Origin: Haloferax elongans ATCC BAA-1513
GTDB taxonomy: Archaea > Halobacteriota > Halobacteria > Halobacteriales > Haloferacaceae
Assembly (NCBI RefSeq): GCF_000336755.1
Contig: NZ_AOLK01000002.1
Location: 1 to 62,303 of the forward strand
Direction: 5' to 3'
Length of the DNA: 62,303 nucleotides
Shown: one piece after another, positions 24,110 to 47,249 of the stretch
Layout of the letters: each line of letters begins with the position of its first letter
Numbering within the stretch: position 1 is the stretch's first letter
Notes under the pieces: generated by a model
What the model was told of the DNA's origin: nothing
The model's database searches: none
The model's input: only the letters and a program-made list of their open reading frames with translations
Made by a program: the position numbers and the translations under genes

Positions 24110-25630
24110 ATGCAAGACGAGAGTGGAAACACAGACCGAACTATTTTATCACGGAGAAAATTACTCGCGGGAATTGGCGGGTCGGTCGCAGCGACCTCAT
24201 TTTCGAGGAAGGCAACGGCGGACGGTGAGTGGATAAACGTCGTCGACGCCGGTGCCGACCCGACCGGGGAGGAATCGATTTCTCCAATCTTGGACGCCCT
24301 CACGACTGAGGACGGTACGACGTTCTACTTCCCGGAAGGCGAATATTTGATGGACGATATGTTCCGCCACGTCGGCTTCAACGGGTTCGAACTCCGTGGC
24401 GACAACGCGACTATTGTCCCCGCACCCGATTACGATGGGCGGTGGCTGTTCAAGTTAGGGACGTACGAGGAACCTGGTGAAGACCTCTACATCGAGGGGT
24501 TGACGTTCGACTTTTCTGCCGACGAGACGGGTCTTCGCGTCGTCCAAGCACAGGTCAAGGACGACCTCCTCGTTCAGGACTTGGCAGTCACCGGTAGACA
24601 CGACAGCGGGAAGTACGGACCTTTTTGCTTCGACGTCACACACCCGGATGGTATCGGGTCGATAGAGAACGTTCGGCTTCCAGACGGCGGGGAGTTCTCC
24701 GAAAACACGCCGGGTGATATCAACGTTGGACCGACTGGGATTCTCGTCTCGCAGTACCACGAGGGAAAACTCTGGGTCCGTAACTGCGATGTCGGGCCAT
24801 GGCCGGACAACGGACTCTACTGTTCGACTGAGACCGGGCGGGTCGTCGTCAAAGGAGGGCTGTTCAAGAACAGTAACATCACGAGTATCCGACTCTCGGG
24901 TGACTACAGCTCTATTCACGATGCGACAGTCATCGTGGACAACCAGCGTGACAACGATACCAACCAGCGTGCCATCCGGCTCGATGGTGGTGCGTACAAC
25001 TGGGTCGAAAACACTGACGTCTATCTGAAACAGCCCAACGGACGCGCAATTAGCATCCAGAACGACGTCAAGTGGGCGCGGATTCAAGACTGTCGCGTCG
25101 TCGTCGAGGACGGCGCACCGACACGGGCGATTTGTGTCTCACCACAGGCGGGGAAAGTCGATATCCTCAACAGTGAAATCGAGTTCAACGCACCCGGGCA
25201 GGCACTCCACCTCGAAGGACCGAGCAGTGCAGACGCTGACCCAGTGTACGTTCTGAAGACCACTATCACCGGGAGCGGCGACGGCTCGCACGGCCGCCAT
25301 GCAGTTCGTGCAGAACGCGGAAACTGTCTGTTCGACCGTCTCGATATCGAACAGACCGGAGACGACTATCGGCGTGGAATCAAGATTCTCGGAGACGGGT
25401 GTACGCTGAAATGGGGTGACTACAACACGACGCACATCCCCATCGTCAACGACGCTGACGAGACGACGTTCCACGGTGTCTCCGCTCGCTCACTCGACGG
25501 CGACCAGGGAATGAAGATTCTCGATGGATCTTCCGGCGTCGAACTCACAGAATCGACAATTCACAACGGAATCTGGGAAGACGGAGAGGTCAGTGTGACC
25601 TACGACGGGAATTGGTACCCTGAGCGATAG
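24110..25630 (+). CDS. Tat-exported right-handed beta-helix protein, copy 1
   Basis: 506 residues. The Tat signal (LSRRKLLAGIGGSVAAT) is followed by INVVDAGADPTGEESISPIL, the opening of pectate-lyase/epimerase-type beta-helix proteins, and then repeated coils (VRNCDVGPWPDNGLYCSTETGRVVVKGG cut here). It is a paralogue of the protein at 27.7 kb, sharing NVDAGADPTG, GDNAT, TFDF, GDIN-GPTGI and PDNGLY blocks. It probably binds, cleaves or epimerises the polysaccharide outside the cell. The promoter lacks the locus motif. Catalytic residues cannot be assigned by eye. Confidence 0.75.
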   Translation: MQDESGNTDRTILSRRKLLAGIGGSVAATSFSRKATADGEWINVVDAGADPTGEESISPILDALTTEDGTTFYFPEGEYLMDDMFRHVGFNGFELRGDNATIVPAPDYDGRWLFKLGTYEEPGEDLYIEGLTFDFSADETGLRVVQAQVKDDLLVQDLAVTGRHDSGKYGPFCFDVTHPDGIGSIENVRLPDGGEFSENTPGDINVGPTGILVSQYHEGKLWVRNCDVGPWPDNGLYCSTETGRVVVKGGLFKNSNITSIRLSGDYSSIHDATVIVDNQRDNDTNQRAIRLDGGAYNWVENTDVYLKQPNGRAISIQNDVKWARIQDCRVVVEDGAPTRAICVSPQAGKVDILNSEIEFNAPGQALHLEGPSSADADPVYVLKTTITGSGDGSHGRHAVRAERGNCLFDRLDIEQTGDDYRRGIKILGDGCTLKWGDYNTTHIPIVNDADETTFHGVSARSLDGDQGMKILDGSSGVELTESTIHNGIWEDGEVSVTYDGNWYPER

Positions 25631-27569: not shown

Positions 27570-27675
27570 CGATGGATCGATAGCACGCCCACTAGTCGTT
27601 TGGTCTACAACTAGTATTTAAATGCTGGCTATATGAAGGCACAGGCACTGGTTATGATTGGCCGTAGTTCTGATT

Positions 27676-29319
27676 ATGAACGAACCAGATTCGGAGAACC
27701 CATCGGGCAGTGGGGGGCCACGTGTCGGTTCGGTCGGGTCGAAAGTCACCAGACGGACGTACCTCTTGGGTACGGTCGGTGCTCTCGGCTTCAGCGGCTA
27801 CGTAGCGACCTCGACCGAGGCCGTTCGGGCTGATACACTCACCGTGGAACTTCCACAGGAGTACCTCGACCGGTTCGACAACATCGTGAACATCGTCGAT
27901 GCGGGTGCAGACCCAACTGGCACGGAGCCTATCGACGATATCCTCGCTTCGGCCGTCGCAGACGACACACTCGTCGTGTTTCCCGAGGGGCGGTACCTGA
28001 TGCACAGCCAACTCCGAAAGACGGGGTACAAAAACCTCGGCTTTTACGGGGATAATGCGACACTCACTCACGGCCAAATCGACGCGATAGAAAACAACGT
28101 CGTGACTGACGGTGAGTTCACGGGTGCTGCCCGGTTCTTCCGGCTCGGTGTCATCTACGCGCCTGGAAAGGACTTGCTTTTCGAGGGGTTCACGTTCGAC
28201 TTCGTCCCGGAACAAACTGGGATTCGCGCTATCGAAGCCTACGTCACCGATGGGTTAGAGGTTCGTGACATCACTATCGTCGGCGAACACGACACCGGAA
28301 CCTTGGGTCCTGCGCTGTTTAGCGTGACCACAGCGAATGGGTCTGGCGTCGTCGAGCGGTTCAAGGCACCTGACGGTGCGGCGTTCACTAAAGATACTAT
28401 CGGAGACATCAACCTCGGGCCGACCGGGATTCTCATCGATCCTAACAGCGCCGGGACGCTTCGAATAGTCGACTGTGAACTCGGGCGGTTCCCGGACAAT
28501 GGGCTCTATGTCTCGGGGGCGAATGGGACGGTTCACGTCGAGGGTGGCACGTACAAAAACAGCACTGTGACGTCGATTCGGCTCAAGGGCTATCGGAGTA
28601 GCATCCGGGGTGTCGATATCATCATCGACGAGTTGGTGTCTGGAATTAGTCAGCGCGGAATTCGCCTCGACGACGGTGCGGACTTCCTCGTTGAAGAGAC
28701 GACGGTCACGGTCACTGGGCCAGCGGAAAACGCGATTCGCGTCCTCAACGACGCCGAAACCTCGACAATCAAAAACTGCTCTATCGTTCTGAACGACGCC
28801 AAGGGAAGTGCTCGGGGAATCCAATTGACCGAAAACGCCGGGCGCGTCGAGGTCTTGGATACGACCATCGAGGTTTACGGGTCTGAGTTTGCGGTGTACC
28901 TTCAGGGGAACAACGACTCACAGGACTCGATGGCGTTGTTGAGGAACGTCACCATTACCGGGCCCGCACCGGGTGATTCAGCACGCGAAGCGATTCGTGT
29001 CGAGCGCGCGAACGGACGATTCGAGAATCTGGTTGTCGACCAACCCGGAGACAACTACCGTCGGTGCGTCGAAATACACGCAGACGACAACCTGTTCATC
29101 GGTGGGACCTACCAGTCGACCCACCATCCCTTCATCAACAAGGGGAACAGAACCCGATTCGACGAAGTCACTGCGCGTTCGTACGGTGGGTGGCAGGCGG
29201 CCAAACTGTACGCCGAGGGAACCGACGTAGTCGTCATGGATTCCACCCTCTACGGTGGCTACATCGACAAGGGCGCAGAAGGTTTCATCGTCGACAACAC
29301 CGAGATGCCCCCTGCCTAA
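27676..29319 (+). CDS. Tat-exported right-handed beta-helix protein, copy 2
   Basis: About 547 residues from MNEPDSENPS at 27676; an ATG at 27658 is possible. The Tat motif is VTRRTYLLGTVGALGFSG. The mature part begins NIVDAGADPTGTEPIDDIL and continues as coils with TSIRLKGYRSSIRGVDIIID and similar turns, parallel to copy 1 (24.1 kb) along nearly the whole length. A TATTTAAA box at about 27613-27620 is the likely promoter. It may be a polysaccharide lyase or epimerase acting on the exported acidic glycan. Confidence 0.75.
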   Translation: MNEPDSENPSGSGGPRVGSVGSKVTRRTYLLGTVGALGFSGYVATSTEAVRADTLTVELPQEYLDRFDNIVNIVDAGADPTGTEPIDDILASAVADDTLVVFPEGRYLMHSQLRKTGYKNLGFYGDNATLTHGQIDAIENNVVTDGEFTGAARFFRLGVIYAPGKDLLFEGFTFDFVPEQTGIRAIEAYVTDGLEVRDITIVGEHDTGTLGPALFSVTTANGSGVVERFKAPDGAAFTKDTIGDINLGPTGILIDPNSAGTLRIVDCELGRFPDNGLYVSGANGTVHVEGGTYKNSTVTSIRLKGYRSSIRGVDIIIDELVSGISQRGIRLDDGADFLVEETTVTVTGPAENAIRVLNDAETSTIKNCSIVLNDAKGSARGIQLTENAGRVEVLDTTIEVYGSEFAVYLQGNNDSQDSMALLRNVTITGPAPGDSAREAIRVERANGRFENLVVDQPGDNYRRCVEIHADDNLFIGGTYQSTHHPFINKGNRTRFDEVTARSYGGWQAAKLYAEGTDVVVMDSTLYGGYIDKGAEGFIVDNTEMPPA

Positions 29320-29396: not shown

Positions 29397-30617
29397 ATGG
29401 ACACCGACCGGTTAGCCGATAAGAACCTCCTCGTGGTCTCACACGGCTACAAGCACTTCGTCAAGTCGCAGGTAGACGTTCTCGCATCGTACTTCGACAC
29501 GATTACCGTCTGCGTCAGATACAACTGGTTCGCAGACGTGGCATCGCGACTTCCGATAGACGCCGGTGATGGGTTCGGAAAGGACGCGAAAATAGCACGG
29601 GACAACGTCCCTGACAACGTCCACGTCGTCGAGACGCCACTTCTGTACCTCCCGGTCGATATCCAACGCGAGCATCTTCTCGGACAACAGCACGTCCGTA
29701 AAGTTCGGAAGAAACTCGAAGACTACCCCATCTCGTTCGACCTGATTCACTGCCACATGTCGTGGACTTCGGGCTACGTTGGTGCGCGACTGAAAGACGA
29801 ACTCGATATCCCGTATCTCCTCACTGTCCACGCCAACCGCGACTGGTTCGAGCGACAACTCCAGTCCGACAACGACCGACTGGAGACGGCGTGGTCCGCC
29901 GCCGACCGCCTCATCCGCGTCAACCGTCGCGACCGCTCGAAGCTCGACCCGTACAACGACGACGTGGTCCACGTTCCGAACGGCTACGACACGGATATCT
30001 TCGAGCGAATCCCCACTGACGAGGCGCGAAAGAGACTCGGTCTCGACGACGACACCCCGGTCGTCTTCGCTCTCGGGACGTTGAAGCCGCGGAAAGGATT
30101 CCAACACCTGATGCGTGCGATGACGCGGGTCCACGACAGCGACCCCGGCACTCGCCTCGTCATCGGCGGACAGGGTGGCATGCGCGACGAACTCGAATCG
30201 CTCGCGTCCGACCTCGGCATCGCCGACCAAACCGCCCTCCTCGGCTACGTGGAGTCGGAGACGCTGAACGACTGGATGAACGCTGCAGACGTGTTCGTCC
30301 TCCCGAGCTACAGCGAGAGTTTCGGCGTGGTCCAACTGGAGGCGATGGCGTGCGGAACGCCTGTTGTCGCCACCAAAAATGGCGGGAGCGAAGAGGTTGT
30401 CACGAGCGAGGCGTACGGGCTCCTCGTGGACGGGCCGGAATCACACGACGAACTCGCCGACGCCGTCGTCGAGGCACTTCACCGTCAGTGGGATGCCGAC
30501 GCCATCGAGTCCTACGCGAACGAATTCACGTGGGAGAACGTGTGTGAGGAACTCGCCGACCTGTACGTAGACGTACTCGACGAGTCGCAGAAATCGACCG
30601 TCTCGACGGTCCACTAG
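29397..30617 (+). CDS. Family 4 glycosyltransferase
   Basis: 406 residues, GT-B fold. The N-terminal half has LLVVSHGYKHFVKSQVDVLA and FDLIHCHMSWTSGYVGA. The C-terminal half has VFALGTLKPRKGFQHLMRAM and the GT4 donor motif FVLPSYSESFGVVQLEAMACGTPVVAT (cut), with Glu spacing E-x7-E. It transfers a sugar from a nucleotide donor in the cytoplasm, retaining the anomeric configuration. The flippase gene converges on it. The acceptor is unknown but is presumably the lipid-linked glycan. Confidence 0.9.
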   Translation: MDTDRLADKNLLVVSHGYKHFVKSQVDVLASYFDTITVCVRYNWFADVASRLPIDAGDGFGKDAKIARDNVPDNVHVVETPLLYLPVDIQREHLLGQQHVRKVRKKLEDYPISFDLIHCHMSWTSGYVGARLKDELDIPYLLTVHANRDWFERQLQSDNDRLETAWSAADRLIRVNRRDRSKLDPYNDDVVHVPNGYDTDIFERIPTDEARKRLGLDDDTPVVFALGTLKPRKGFQHLMRAMTRVHDSDPGTRLVIGGQGGMRDELESLASDLGIADQTALLGYVESETLNDWMNAADVFVLPSYSESFGVVQLEAMACGTPVVATKNGGSEEVVTSEAYGLLVDGPESHDELADAVVEALHRQWDADAIESYANEFTWENVCEELADLYVDVLDESQKSTVSTVH

Positions 30618-30697: not shown

Positions 30698-33304
30698 TTA
30701 GAGCGCGCTCCGTCCGGCGAGTGCGACGACACCGACGAACAGCATCGACTGGTACCACACCGCACCAGTCGGTAGCCACCCCGCCGAAAGCCACTGTATC
30801 GGCAGCAAATCGCTTACGGCTGCCGGAGTAGCCATCAACAGCGTCGACCCATCGGTCGAGTCCGTGGGAGTACTCTCCCCCGCTGAACTCGACGTCGTGG
30901 AGTCAGTCGCCGTGGTCTCTTCCGTCGATTCGGTCGTCTCGGCCGTTGTGTCACTCGACGTTTCGGTCGTGGTGTCCGTGGCTGTGGTGTCTGTCGTCGT
31001 GTCTGTACTAGTGGTCGTCTCAGTGGTCGTCGTCTCAGTCGTAGTCGTCGTGTCGGTGGTGGTGTCTGTGGTGGTCGCAGTGGTCGTGGTGTCCGTAGTT
31101 GTGGTGTCAGTCGTCGTGTCTGTACTGGTGGTCGTCGTTGCCGTGGTCCCTGGGGTTCCGGTCGTGGTGGTGGTCGTTGTGGTGTTATTCCCCGGCGAAT
31201 CAGTCGTCGTTGTTGCGGTCGTGGTCGTTGTCGTCGTGTTGTTTCCGGGCGAGTCGGTCGTGGTGGTAGTGGTGGTTGTTGTAGTGTTGTTCCCCGGCGT
31301 GCCGGTCGTCGTTGTCGTCGTGTTGTTGGTCGGCGAATCTGTGGTCGTCGTTGTCGACGTGGGCGCTTGGGTTGGCGTGTCGTCATCGCCACTGTCGTCA
31401 TCATCCTCATCGTCGTCATCGTCGTCGCCACCACCGCCGAAGAACCCGCCGTCGTCGGTTGTCGTCGTGGTCGGTGAGCTAGTCGACGTGGTCTGGTTGC
31501 TCGCTGTCGTCGTCGCTGGGGTCCTTGTCGGGAGCGCTCTGTCTATTATCGACGGCGTGTCTGTCACGGGGGGCATCGGTGTATCCGTGACCGGAGAGGT
31601 GTTGTTGACCTCGGGAACCGGTGAGTCGCCGTCGATAGACGGCCCGACGTCGACGCTGGGGACGCCCATCGCGAGTGCGACTCCCGAGAGGGAAAGCAAG
31701 ACACCGACAGCGAGCAGTACGTACTGAAGCGTGTCTTTGTGGCGTTCGGCCCACGACTCGTTGCCCCACGCCGGGTCGCTCGTCGTTTCGATTTCACCGC
31801 GGCGTGCTTGTGCTCTCGTCGCCCACGAACCGAGTGGGTCGGGAAGCGACGCCATCACGTCGAGTGCTTCGTCGACGCCGACAGCGCCGACCATGAATGC
31901 CACCGTCACGTACACGAGAAATCCAATCGGTGGCACGACTACCAGCGCGACGAGGCTGTGTTCGAGCGTCATCGAGAGCAGGAATATCGGAACACCGGCG
32001 ATGAATCCCGTCGCGAAGATTCGACTGATTCGGGCGTCTGAAAACGGTTTGAACCCGAGATACCGGGCACTAAAGAGGTTGAAAAGGGGCAGCGACGAGT
32101 AGCCAGTCGTCGTCGCGATTGCCGCGCCGAGAATCCCGTATCGAGGGATGAGAAGCGCGTTCAACCCGAGGTTCAGCGCGGCTGCAGCGCCTGTCGCCGT
32201 GATGAGCGGTTTCATGTCCGCTTTCGCGTGGCTAATTGCGAGAATCGGCCTGACGACTGCGAACCCAATCGTTCCGGGAAGAAGGATGAGAAGCGGTGTG
32301 ACCACTGGCATCGAGCCGTCGCCGAGATAGAGCGGAACGAAGTCCTTCGCGAGCGCCCCGAGTCCAATCGACAGCAGGACGACGACGAGCATCCCGTAGC
32401 GCGTGACACGCGATGCGATTTCGTTAATCTGCTCGATGCGGTCTTCGGCCCAGAGATCCGAGACGGATTGAATGAGCATCGACTGAATCGAACGCGGGAT
32501 GACCCAGAGGAACTGCGTGATGACAAGCGCAGATTTGTAGTATCCGACCTGCGTCTCCGTGACGAACGACGCGAGCATCAGGACGTCGACGTGGTACATC
32601 GACGTCAGGAACAACATATAGACCACAGAGAGGTGGTTGAAGCTGAACAGTTCCTTCGTCGGGAACTCCTGTGGCGGCGTGGAGACGACGCCACGAAGCG
32701 AGATACTACTTCTGAGCCACCACATCGCGAGGAGGGCCACGAGTCCGTTGACGACGATGAGGCCTACCATCAGCCCCCCGATTTCGAACCCGAGATAGGC
32801 GATACCGATGAGTGCGATTCTGGAGCCGACTTTGTTGAACACCCGGAGTGGCTCCGAGAGGTGTTCTTGCTTGAGTCCCATCAGCGACCGTCGCGAGTAC
32901 TCGCGGAACTGTGTCGCGATAGTCAACCCGGCCAGCCCGTAGAACCCGATGACGTACTCTCTTCCGAGGAATCGTGTGACGAGTCCCGACCACGCCGCGA
33001 GGGCAAACGCGATTGCAGTCAGCACCGCCAGAACAGTTCCAAGTCGGAAGTAGTAGCCGAAGACGTGCGACTTCCAATCGCTAATCGACCGGTCCTCGGC
33101 GAGGAACTTCCGAGCCCCGCTGTTGATACCCGAACTCATCAATATCGTCGAGATACCGAAGACCGCAGTGAGAGTACTGTACCGGCCGTAGAGTTCGAAT
33201 CCGAGGGTCGTGATGAGAATTGGCGTCAGAACCACCGAGGAGAGGACGATGAAGATTCGGCCGCCGACGATAGAGAGAAACGCCGTGACCATGTTACGGC
33301 TCAT
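30698..33304 (-). CDS. Wzx-type flippase fused to a long Thr-rich tail
   Basis: About 868 residues from the ATG at 33304 (MSRNMVTAFLSIVGG), which has a GAGGGGGTG ribosome-binding site; the ATG at 33439 would start inside the promoter motif. Residues 1-500 are a 12-14-helix polysaccharide flippase (RIFIVLSSVVLTPILITTLG, SGINSGARKFL). One more helix (about 525-545) follows, then some 260 residues of Thr/Asp/Ser/Gly low complexity with many N-N-T sequons and an acidic DDDDDDEDDDD run, then a final hydrophobic segment. Normal flippases end after the helices, so the tail is unusual. It presumably moves the glycan-lipid outward. Confidence 0.8.
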   Translation of the reverse strand: MSRNMVTAFLSIVGGRIFIVLSSVVLTPILITTLGFELYGRYSTLTAVFGISTILMSSGINSGARKFLAEDRSISDWKSHVFGYYFRLGTVLAVLTAIAFALAAWSGLVTRFLGREYVIGFYGLAGLTIATQFREYSRRSLMGLKQEHLSEPLRVFNKVGSRIALIGIAYLGFEIGGLMVGLIVVNGLVALLAMWWLRSSISLRGVVSTPPQEFPTKELFSFNHLSVVYMLFLTSMYHVDVLMLASFVTETQVGYYKSALVITQFLWVIPRSIQSMLIQSVSDLWAEDRIEQINEIASRVTRYGMLVVVLLSIGLGALAKDFVPLYLGDGSMPVVTPLLILLPGTIGFAVVRPILAISHAKADMKPLITATGAAAALNLGLNALLIPRYGILGAAIATTTGYSSLPLFNLFSARYLGFKPFSDARISRIFATGFIAGVPIFLLSMTLEHSLVALVVVPPIGFLVYVTVAFMVGAVGVDEALDVMASLPDPLGSWATRAQARRGEIETTSDPAWGNESWAERHKDTLQYVLLAVGVLLSLSGVALAMGVPSVDVGPSIDGDSPVPEVNNTSPVTDTPMPPVTDTPSIIDRALPTRTPATTTASNQTTSTSSPTTTTTDDGGFFGGGGDDDDDDEDDDDSGDDDTPTQAPTSTTTTTDSPTNNTTTTTTGTPGNNTTTTTTTTTTDSPGNNTTTTTTTATTTTDSPGNNTTTTTTTTGTPGTTATTTTSTDTTTDTTTTDTTTTATTTDTTTDTTTTTETTTTETTTSTDTTTDTTATDTTTETSSDTTAETTESTEETTATDSTTSSSAGESTPTDSTDGSTLLMATPAAVSDLLPIQWLSAGWLPTGAVWYQSMLFVGVVALAGRSAL
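30880..31480. repeat. Low-complexity repeat tract in the flippase tail
   Basis: On the plus strand this is a long run of gtcgtg/gtggtg-type triplets encoding mostly Thr on the minus strand, with sub-repeats of the unit DSPGNNTTTTTT. Length changes by slippage are likely. Confidence 0.7.
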
Positions 33305-33537: not shown

Positions 33538-33559
33538 CGTTACCAAATCGATAATAAAG
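33538..33559 (+). promoter_or_regulatory. 22-bp locus promoter motif (site 10)
   Basis: CGTTAC-N7-ATAATAA-AG, ending 34 nt before the GT2 ATG at 33592. It forms a divergent pair with the flippase promoter about 80 bp away. Confidence 0.55.
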
Positions 33560-33591
33560 GCCACAGAGTGGTGAGTAGCAGTCGATACTCG

Positions 33592-34506
33592 ATGCCGACA
33601 GTGAGCGTCATCATTCCAACGTACAACCGAGCGGACGTGTTACCACGGGCAATCGACAGTGCTCTCGACCAAACGCTGTCTGACGTCGAGGTAATCGTCG
33701 TCGACGACGCCTCGTCCGACGAGACAGAGCCGGTCGTAACCTCTTACGACGACCCACGCGTGATTTACCGCGCCCACGAGACGAATCAAGGCGGGAGCGC
33801 GGCACGCAACACCGGAATCGAAATTGCGGAGGGAGAGTACATCGCGCTTCTCGACTCCGACGACGAGTGGGCGCCGACGAAACTCGAACGACAGGTCGGG
33901 ACGCTCGAACGGCGCTCCGACGAGTGGGTCGCTGCGTACTGCGGGACGACCATCGTCGACGACGAGGAGGCAAACCCGCTGTGGGAGCGCTTCAAATCGC
34001 TCGTCGGGAGACACAGTTCGAGAGAGGGTGCGGAAGGCGGCGAGGAACTCGTCAAGGAAATTCTCATGGAGAACCTCCACACCAGTGCTGGCTCGACGCT
34101 CATCGTCGAGAAATCGGTCGTGGACAAAATCGACGGCTTCGACGAGTCGTTCGACCGCTATCAGGACACCGAGTTTCTGATTCGAGTCCTCAAACAAGGC
34201 AAACTCGCATACGTCGACGAACCGCTCTTACTTCGGTATCCGTCGGGTGGTCCGAGTGCTGATGCTGTCCGACAGGCGAACAGCCACTATCTACAGACGT
34301 TCGCCGAAGACGTCGTCGAACTCGAAACCCGAGGATACGACGTCACAGGCACCCACCACTACGCCCTTGCGTCGTTGTATCTCCGAGAAGGCCGCTTCGA
34401 ACCCGGACTTGCATTCCTCCGCTCGGGCACGACACCCGGCATCGGTCAGCTTCCGGGTCTCTTATTCAGCGTGGTCAAAGGATTTCAGAATCGAATGAGC
34501 GCCTGA
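33592..34506 (+). CDS. Family 2 glycosyltransferase
   Basis: 304 residues from MPTVSVIIPTYNRADVLPRA. GT-A motifs: VEVIVVDDASSDETEPVV, GGSAARNTGIEIAEGEYIAL and the metal motif LLDSDDEW. Middle region SFDRYQDTEFLIRVLKQGKLAYVDEPLLLRY cut; the YQDTEF Asp is the likely base. It has no membrane anchor and probably works on the inner leaflet with the other transferases. The gene is divergent from the flippase and convergent with the transmembrane regulator gene. Confidence 0.88.
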   Translation: MPTVSVIIPTYNRADVLPRAIDSALDQTLSDVEVIVVDDASSDETEPVVTSYDDPRVIYRAHETNQGGSAARNTGIEIAEGEYIALLDSDDEWAPTKLERQVGTLERRSDEWVAAYCGTTIVDDEEANPLWERFKSLVGRHSSREGAEGGEELVKEILMENLHTSAGSTLIVEKSVVDKIDGFDESFDRYQDTEFLIRVLKQGKLAYVDEPLLLRYPSGGPSADAVRQANSHYLQTFAEDVVELETRGYDVTGTHHYALASLYLREGRFEPGLAFLRSGTTPGIGQLPGLLFSVVKGFQNRMSA

Positions 34507-46101: not shown

Positions 46102-46232
46102 TCTACGAGGAGAGATTTCATACACTTCGCTTTTCGCTCGGCTTCGGCGCGCCTTTGGAGAGATACAAAGACGTAGTTGACCATTTCACCCTGCCAAAAG
46201 GCACTTGTGACAATAGTATAACAGATACTCGA

Positions 46233-47249
46233 ATGACGTCATCGCCCGACAAGTCACGCGAGACGATGACACTCCCTGAAACGTTGCCGCCCCCTCAGGA
46301 GTCGATGCAGACGTTTCTAATTGGGTTATTGATGGGGACTGCCGACGGCGTACCTGGCGTTTCAGGCGGAACAATTGCTCTCATTACAGGTATCTACGAA
46401 CGGCTTCTGGCAGCGATTACTGCCGTTACTCCCAGCCGTGTCGGAAACTGCCTTCGTGCAGTTTCTCCACTGCACGGTGGCATCTCACCAGCCCAAATCA
46501 CTCGAGTTCTCGACGAAGTCGACGGCTGGTTCCTGCTTACCTTACTCGGGGGAATCAGTACAGCGATTATCCTCGTCGGTCAAGCAGTCGAGTGGGCAAA
46601 CGAACACACGCCAGTTCTACTCTTCGGACTATTCTTTGGTTTCATCGGTGCATCGGCAGTCATTCTCCTTCGAGCAGCCGCAATCCGTACGCTCCCCGAA
46701 GCAACCGCAGCTGTCTTGGGTGTGACTGCTGCCTTCGTTATCTCGGGGCAATCGCAAGCACTACTTGAAACAGGAAGTCTCCCCGTACTCTTCGTCGCAG
46801 GGGCAATTGCCATCAGTGCGATGATTCTTCCCGGGCTTTCCGGGTCACTATTACTCGTAATCCTAGGCCAGTACACATACATGTATGGGAAGTTAGGAGA
46901 GTTTCTCGATGGGATTGTTACAGCAGCGACGACTGGCTCTCTCGATACCCTCGTTACTGCGAGTGACGAGGTGACGATATTTATTCTTGGAGGCCTCGTT
47001 GGCCTCTTTACGGTCGCCAGAGTAATTCGCCGCGCCCTCGACGCATACCAGGACATCACCTATGCGTTTCTCATCTCGCTTGTCTTAGGCGCACTTCGAG
47101 CGCCAATTACGACACTCAACAGCGCTGAATACTCGGTGACGTGGAACACTGCTACGATACAAGCCTTCGCCATGACTGCTCTCTCTGGCGCACTCATCGT
47201 GTTCGTCCTCGACTGGTACGCCGTCGATATCGACCTCGAAACTGTCTGA
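46233..47249 (+). CDS. DUF368 (PopT-type) polyprenyl-phosphate carrier
   Basis: About 338 residues with 8-9 helices. The DUF368 signature GLLMGTADGVPGVSGGTIAL is at residues about 29-48, and a second copy-like motif MILPGLSGSLLLVILGQYTYMY is in the middle, giving the two re-entrant halves of the family. Bacterial members (PopT) return undecaprenyl phosphate across the membrane. In this archaeon the cargo would be dolichyl phosphate, released after glycan transfer, which ties it functionally to the glycan locus. The start at 46233 was chosen by family length. Confidence 0.88.
   Translation: MTSSPDKSRETMTLPETLPPPQESMQTFLIGLLMGTADGVPGVSGGTIALITGIYERLLAAITAVTPSRVGNCLRAVSPLHGGISPAQITRVLDEVDGWFLLTLLGGISTAIILVGQAVEWANEHTPVLLFGLFFGFIGASAVILLRAAAIRTLPEATAAVLGVTAAFVISGQSQALLETGSLPVLFVAGAIAISAMILPGLSGSLLLVILGQYTYMYGKLGEFLDGIVTAATTGSLDTLVTASDEVTIFILGGLVGLFTVARVIRRALDAYQDITYAFLISLVLGALRAPITTLNSAEYSVTWNTATIQAFAMTALSGALIVFVLDWYAVDIDLETV

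Follow-up and report, generated by a model that had tools for sequence, protein, structure and literature searches.

The window analysed here comprises 62,303 nucleotides of Haloferax elongans ATCC BAA-1513 (contig NZ_AOLK01000002.1, positions 1 to 62,303). It contains a minus-strand gene in which a predicted flippase is continued by an additional transmembrane helix and a long Thr-rich tail. The gene is flanked by two glycosyltransferase genes, of which one is convergent and the other divergent:

27658..29319, (+): exported β-helix protein (PF13229/PF12708), with a second copy at 24110-25630
29397..30617, (+): convergent GT4 glycosyltransferase (PF00534), present in 16 of the 51 loci compared
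30698..33304, (-): fused flippase-stalk gene, 868 aa; open reading frame and start confirmed by homologues, seven Haloferax genomes
30704..30763, (-): C-terminal hydrophobic helix, residues 848-867 (model helix, conservation)
30764..31663, (-): disordered Thr/Ser/Asp-rich tail, predicted extracellular, residues 548-847, with all sequons (pLDDT, composition, sequon statistics)
31178..31340, (-): N-N-T repeats (TPGNNTTTT, SPGNNTTTT) within the tail (sequence)
31380..31457, (-): Gly/aromatic and poly-Asp block DDGGFFGGGGDDDDDDEDDDDSGDDD (sequence), with a similar block in the full-tailed Haloferax relatives
31664..31753, (-): extra helix TM15, residues 518-547 (model helix, conserved motif)
31754..31849, (-): predicted cytoplasmic linker, residues 486-517, with Arg/Lys beside helix 15 (ATRAQARRG, AERHKD; positive-inside rule)
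31850..33304, (-): flippase core, residues 1-485, 14 transmembrane helices, MOP/Wzx fold (Pfam PF13440, Foldseek)
33568..34506, (+): divergent GT2 glycosyltransferase (PF00535), present in 25 of the 51 loci compared

Besides several glycosyltransferases, the locus encodes two UDP-sugar dehydrogenases, a GlmS-like protein, a nucleotidyltransferase, a DegT aminotransferase, a UDP-GlcNAc-3-dehydrogenase-like protein, a phosphomannomutase-like protein and winged-helix regulators; PGA_cap, polysaccharide deacetylase and phosphomutase genes are found in related loci elsewhere. The exported β-helix family, which is pectate-lyase-like, occurs near the flippase in 30 of the 51 loci across Halobacteria. 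Elsewhere in the window (46155-47249, plus strand) lies a PF04018 gene (polyprenyl-phosphate translocase-like, VCA0040 family), whose product could recycle the lipid carrier. The sequence TCGATAATAAA at 33548-33558, upstream of the GT2 gene, recurs upstream of a stand-alone stalk gene in another genome (G073, locus L199) and is possibly a shared promoter element.

The only STT3/AglB that we found in the genome (994 bits) is located at 636718-639633 of another contig (C15 of G000; the fused gene is on C2). About 5 kb from it, at C15:630103, there is a flippase, but this is another gene, tail-less and 26% identical. The fused gene does not adjoin aglB, as the flippase of a canonical AglB cluster would. 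Judging from the set of glycan-synthesis genes and the location of STT3 elsewhere, the locus most likely serves a surface polysaccharide, or a secondary glycan, that is acidic and contains amino sugars, rather than being a canonical agl cluster.

The fused gene runs from an ATG at 33304 to a stop codon at 30698-30700. An extended frame of 913 aa was rejected, because the homologues begin at the Met of the shorter form (M-K/N-R-N-M-V). The same start had been proposed in an earlier reading made from the DNA letters alone (the sequence-only reading), which had left out the strand. That reading had also described the encoded protein as a Wzx-like transporter, and our comparisons agree with it: Polysacc_synt_3 (PF13440) matches residues 38-329 with an E-value of 2e-10 and 40.8 bits (Pfam cut-off 23), an AlphaFold model of the 868-residue protein, built from 46 sequences, shows the 14 core helices at high confidence, and the best solved relatives in Foldseek are WzxE (9g9p, TM-score by target 0.83) and MurJ (7waw, 0.78), at E-values of about 1e-8. 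By these similarities the protein would be a Wzx-type flippase of the MOP superfamily for lipid-linked glycans.

Both hydrophobic segments that had been noticed beyond the core, an extra helix and one at the C-terminus, are present in the model, at residues 518-547 (pLDDT about 50) and 848-867 (pLDDT about 65); local confidence is low to moderate at both, so their exact ends are uncertain. The pLDDT is below 50 across residues 545-849, and 548-847 are unstructured. The extension past helix 15 measures about 320 residues, not some 260 as first estimated, and includes a tandem repeat with a period of about 48 bp (31217-31328), in the region of the N-N-T repeats. TM15 carries the motif LLxxGxLLFxxGxxxAxGxP, which is conserved across Halobacteria. 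The C-terminal helix is likely a second membrane anchor. Its motif ...W(F/Y)xSxLxVGxxALAGR is conserved in Haloferax and similar in Halobellus; its hydrophobicity is weak (1.25 over 17 residues), and the helix is absent in Halogranum and Saliphagus.

Lys and Arg are distributed very unevenly over the predicted topology, with 22 in 171 residues inside and 5 in 402 outside. Since this bias (positive-inside rule) and the helix count, 14 in the core plus one, agree, we infer that the tail lies outside the cell.

The full fused form is found in 7 of 15 Haloferax genomes. Haloferax mucosum has a shortened tail and has lost the C-terminal helix, five genomes have only distant tail-less relatives (31-41% identity), and in the remaining two no relative was found at the threshold used. 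The relatives include those of H. larsenii (98% identical), H. gibbonsii, H. prahovense, H. massiliensis, strain Q22, H. mucosum and Halobellus rufus, and Haloferax shares the conserved fusion with Halobellus and other Haloferacaceae. All 25 of 25 tail indels between close pairs are multiples of three, substitutions between close tails favour third codon positions, and helix 15 and the C-terminus are conserved. It is extremely improbable that an assembly or frame artefact has joined a flippase gene to an unrelated Thr-rich gene: one relative, from H. larsenii, does hold an assembly artefact inside its tail, but other Haloferax species and Halobellus, assembled independently, have the same fusion, and the tail indels preserve the frame. 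We therefore reject a sequencing or frame error for the lineage of the window and consider the fusion, as claimed in the sequence-only reading, to be genuine. The H. larsenii artefact (L018:12404-12425; strain JCM 13917, NZ_AOLI01000017.1) consists of one N and, right after it, a Nextera adapter sequence; it reads MCIRDS and gives the frame in this tail a false early stop. In H. mucosum (L012/L021), the end of the shortened tail runs into the convergent GT4 gene.

The 321 residues from position 548 on consist of 40% Thr, 9% Ser, 15% Asp and Glu, and only 1% Lys and Arg, and the net charge of the disordered tail of about 300 residues is −44. Across the tails compared, Thr makes up 25-47%; they are usually acidic and nearly lack Lys and Arg, while their sequence and length differ (range about 160 to 380 residues). 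Thus, among the relatives compared, composition is kept but sequence, which evolves fast, is not. All 11 Asn of the H. elongans tail are part of N-x-S/T sequons, compared to 5.1 expected from shuffling. As a Thr-rich sequence makes sequons by chance, we used a stricter control, which compares Asn to other residues of the same tails for how often they precede x-[S/T] (x not Pro). In 35 tails from many genera, this applies to 78% of 285 Asn, against 25% of Asp, 34% of Glu, 33% of Gln and 34% of Asn read backwards. In five Haloferax tails 59 of 59 Asn are in sequons and, tail by tail, the sequon share of Asn exceeds that of D, E, Q, G and A in 24 of 26 tails. There are also tails with few or no sequons (L040 with none, L117 and L111 with one each). 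Low-complexity tails expand easily, and since repeat expansion copies sequons, the tails are not fully independent observations; the excess is nevertheless seen in many genera with unrelated repeats. With the Asp, Glu, Gln and reversed-Asn controls we reject the view that Thr richness alone produces the sequons, leaving repeat copying as a possible contributor. By these sequence statistics, the Asn of the tails are selected to be sequons.

The tail thus combines a Thr/Ser-rich, disordered stretch, predicted to lie outside, with sequons above chance, as one would look for in an S-layer or mucin-like stalk. Its description as a heavily glycosylated stalk in the sequence-only reading is a fair one, as the tail is predicted to be outside and its Asn are selected as sequons: N-glycosylation at many of the sequons would be expected, and the genome encodes an archaeal oligosaccharyltransferase, the STT3/AglB named above. 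The Thr residues are probably O-glycosylated, by analogy with haloarchaeal S-layer glycoproteins, in which a membrane-proximal Thr-rich stretch is O-glycosylated and has been proposed to act as a spacer (PMC2913515); the S-layer of Haloarcula hispanica bears an O-linked disaccharide (PMC9943897).

Relatives of the flippase are found in 177 of 391 genomes of the class Halobacteria. Of the best matches listed, some 150, we read out and checked a long tail in about 33. In some lineages, mainly of the Natrialbaceae, helix 15 is followed by only a few residues, and others have neither helix 15 nor tail. On a tree of 89 flippase cores, a sample enriched for long-tailed proteins, so that its counts are not frequencies, the tail label needs 10 changes, compared to 28.7 with shuffled labels. 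Long tails are thus clustered but do not trace back to a single event, and the long-tailed flippase is a recurring architecture of the class, gained and lost repeatedly. As several clades of the same family lack the tail and that of H. mucosum is short, the stalk is not essential for flipping. Two candidates with long reading frames (L116:8316-10268 and L134:7293-9044) were rejected as long-tailed flippases; they belong to the same family, but lack TM15 and have charged, coiled-coil-like C-termini that are apparently cytoplasmic. A third (L139) was rejected because the protein has 499 aa in spite of its long frame.

To find split forms, we looked in the flanks of the flippase genes for helices with low-complexity sequence behind them, before searching with a profile of helix 15. 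Stand-alone helix-plus-tail ORFs, in loci whose flippase is tail-less, were found in Halegenticoccus soli (L025:2948-3649, 233 aa), Haloarcula amylovorans (L029:16331-16972, 213 aa) and Halalkalicoccus paucihalophilus (L030:13042-13785, 247 aa), and two more (L026:13839-14591, L135:11729-12286) occur alongside a fused tail in the same locus. The stand-alone ORFs score 16 to 27 bits with the profile, the next match 8. In G073, a stalk ORF follows a tail-less flippase at a distance of about 0.1 kb, on the same strand and in another frame, and this pair closely resembles that of Halalkalicoccus. A TM15 match in G048 was rejected as a separate stalk, since it is what remains of a broken flippase C-terminus.

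In a sample of 106 genomes, 14 have a flippase and a non-flippase TM15-like protein, and in 12 of these the two are within 70 kb of each other; we read nine of the 12 individually, the other three being G039, G102 and G042. As most linked cases belong to one Natrialbaceae-type CarboxypepD_reg family, lineages should be counted rather than genomes, and about six in all have a flippase-linked separate TM15-like protein. The Natrialbaceae-type family (G046, G116, G096, G075, G098, G070 and G058; loci L197, L188, L189, L198, L191, L192 and L193) comprises proteins of about 300-350 aa with a helix-15-like anchor, a very acidic disordered linker and usually two CarboxypepD_reg/PEGA-like domains, encoded about 20-70 kb from the flippase. 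In Halegenticoccus soli, another contig (L165) encodes a weakly similar anchor that leads through a low-complexity linker into a malectin (carbohydrate-binding) domain, so that this type of anchor is not exclusive to the flippase locus. TM15-like anchors may be a general haloarchaeal type: the proteins that bear them include some with CarboxypepD_reg, CARDB or malectin domains, and one such anchor lies 724 kb from the flippase.

Tail and flippase are thus not always fused, a point on which the sequence-only reading had asked for a check in related genomes: they are split in Halalkalicoccus, in Halegenticoccus, in a Haloarcula and in G073. That reading had named tails in separate ORFs as evidence against its proposal; such ORFs exist in some lineages, yet the fusion is no error. 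Separate ORFs in flippase loci rather point to a modular tail, able to work in cis as well as in trans, and the linkage kept after the split supports a functional partnership of stalk and flippase. We regard the split form as the most useful new fact, as it turns the fusion into evidence of such a partnership.

We found no description of a flippase with such a stalk in the open-access literature, and the known systems that come closest differ from it. WzxE and other Wzx structures (PDB 9g9p, 9g9n) share the core fold, the Polysacc_synt_3 domain and the place among glycosyltransferase genes, but the solved chains have about 410 residues and lack helix 15, the Thr-rich tail and the C-terminal helix. 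MurJ of Mycobacterium tuberculosis (MviN, Rv3910) is also a MOP flippase with 14 conserved helices and a long C-terminal extension, and has a further helix and an outer domain as well. Its described extension, which regulates or recruits partners, is however intracellular and contains a pseudokinase domain (PMC6180346), whereas the one in Haloferax is disordered, rich in Thr and sequons and by prediction extracellular; the two are not homologous. The S-layer spacer, likewise an O-glycosylated stretch beside a membrane helix (PMC2913515), is part of the S-layer subunit, whereas here the stretch belongs to a transporter, is anchored at its N-terminus by TM15 and often at its C-terminus too; the two may share a working principle, with the flippase-stalk protein outside the S-layer glycoprotein family. 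Agl15 and AglR, the (predicted) flippases of N-glycosylation in Haloferax volcanii (PMC5867893), resemble our protein, by description and not by sequence comparison, in that they are proposed to move lipid-linked sugars in Haloferax; here, the flippase near STT3 is another gene and tail-less. Substrates of archaeosortases with a PGF-CTERM also have a hydrophobic C-terminal helix and a basic end behind a Thr-rich stretch, but we rejected such a sorting signal, since eight proteins gave no NCBIfam CTERM match at E-values up to 1 and have no PGF motif.

Our preferred explanation builds on the computed architecture and its conservation, the selection for sequons, the class-wide distribution, the split forms and their linkage. 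In it, to which we give a probability of about one half, a surface-polysaccharide flippase carries, in cis or in trans, a glycosylated extracellular stalk that serves as a spacer or tether. Helix 15 would place the long, disordered, acidic and Thr-rich stalk outside the cell, where many sequons would bear N-glycans and the Thr residues probably O-glycans, as in the S-layer spacer. In Haloferax, its end would probably be re-anchored by the C-terminal helix, so that a glycosylated loop would lie above the exit side of the flippase. The stalk would most likely act as a hydrated brush of negative charge, which keeps space free beneath the S-layer where the glycan leaves the flippase, and may also hold partner enzymes there. 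Where it is separate, a helix-plus-tail protein from the same locus would do the same in trans.

Of the other explanations, none of which we consider likely, the foremost is that the tail is nearly neutral, a tolerated low-complexity outer extension whose acidic and Thr residues keep it soluble and which has no specific job. The fast evolution of the tails, their range of lengths and the several relatives without a tail would fit this, but the frame, the composition, the sequons, helix 15 and the Haloferax C-terminus are all kept, tails recur on several branches of the tree and separate ORFs stay near the flippase gene. Ranking after it, and unlikely as well, is the stalk as an acceptor or primer, to which a glycan from the core or from another flippase is attached by AglB or another transferase, so that the flippase carries or anchors the exported polymer. 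The very dense sequons under selection, the predicted place of the stalk at the exit side and the linkage preserved in split forms all speak for it. On the other hand, some tails have few or no sequons, and the only STT3 found is on another contig near a different flippase, so that the sequons do not have to carry the glycan flipped by the fused core; moreover, in H. hispanica the DolP-glucuronic acid step of the acidic exopolysaccharide was found to be separate from N- and O-glycosylation of the S-layer (PMC9943897). We therefore rate a spacer or tether, as the inferred role, above an acceptor.

A bolder proposal, which we hold to be doubtful, makes the helix-plus-stalk a distinct and so far undescribed subunit of the haloarchaeal machinery for Wzx export, which most lineages have fused to the flippase and others encode separately, with the stalk as attachment point or template for the exported surface glycan. 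Least probable among the functional readings is an assembly platform, on which the stalk holds or recruits partners such as a polymerase, the exported β-helix proteins or an S-layer subunit instead of acting as a spacer. The roughly 340-residue Natrialbaceae proteins, in which a TM15-like anchor and an acidic disordered linker precede two CarboxypepD_reg domains, and the proximity of β-helix proteins to the flippase would agree with a platform, but the fused tails have no conserved folded domain or linear motif except the Gly/aromatic-Asp block, and no known partner.

To our knowledge, how archaeal glycans pass from the flippase through the narrow space under the S-layer is poorly understood. 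Flippases with a predicted glycosylated stalk of their own, whether attached or supplied by a second gene, offer a defined gene pair, in fused and split form, in which this passage can be tested. By our sequence analysis, they would also mean that an outer domain of mucin-like type can be carried by a MOP flippase, and that it appeared and disappeared repeatedly within a single class of archaea.
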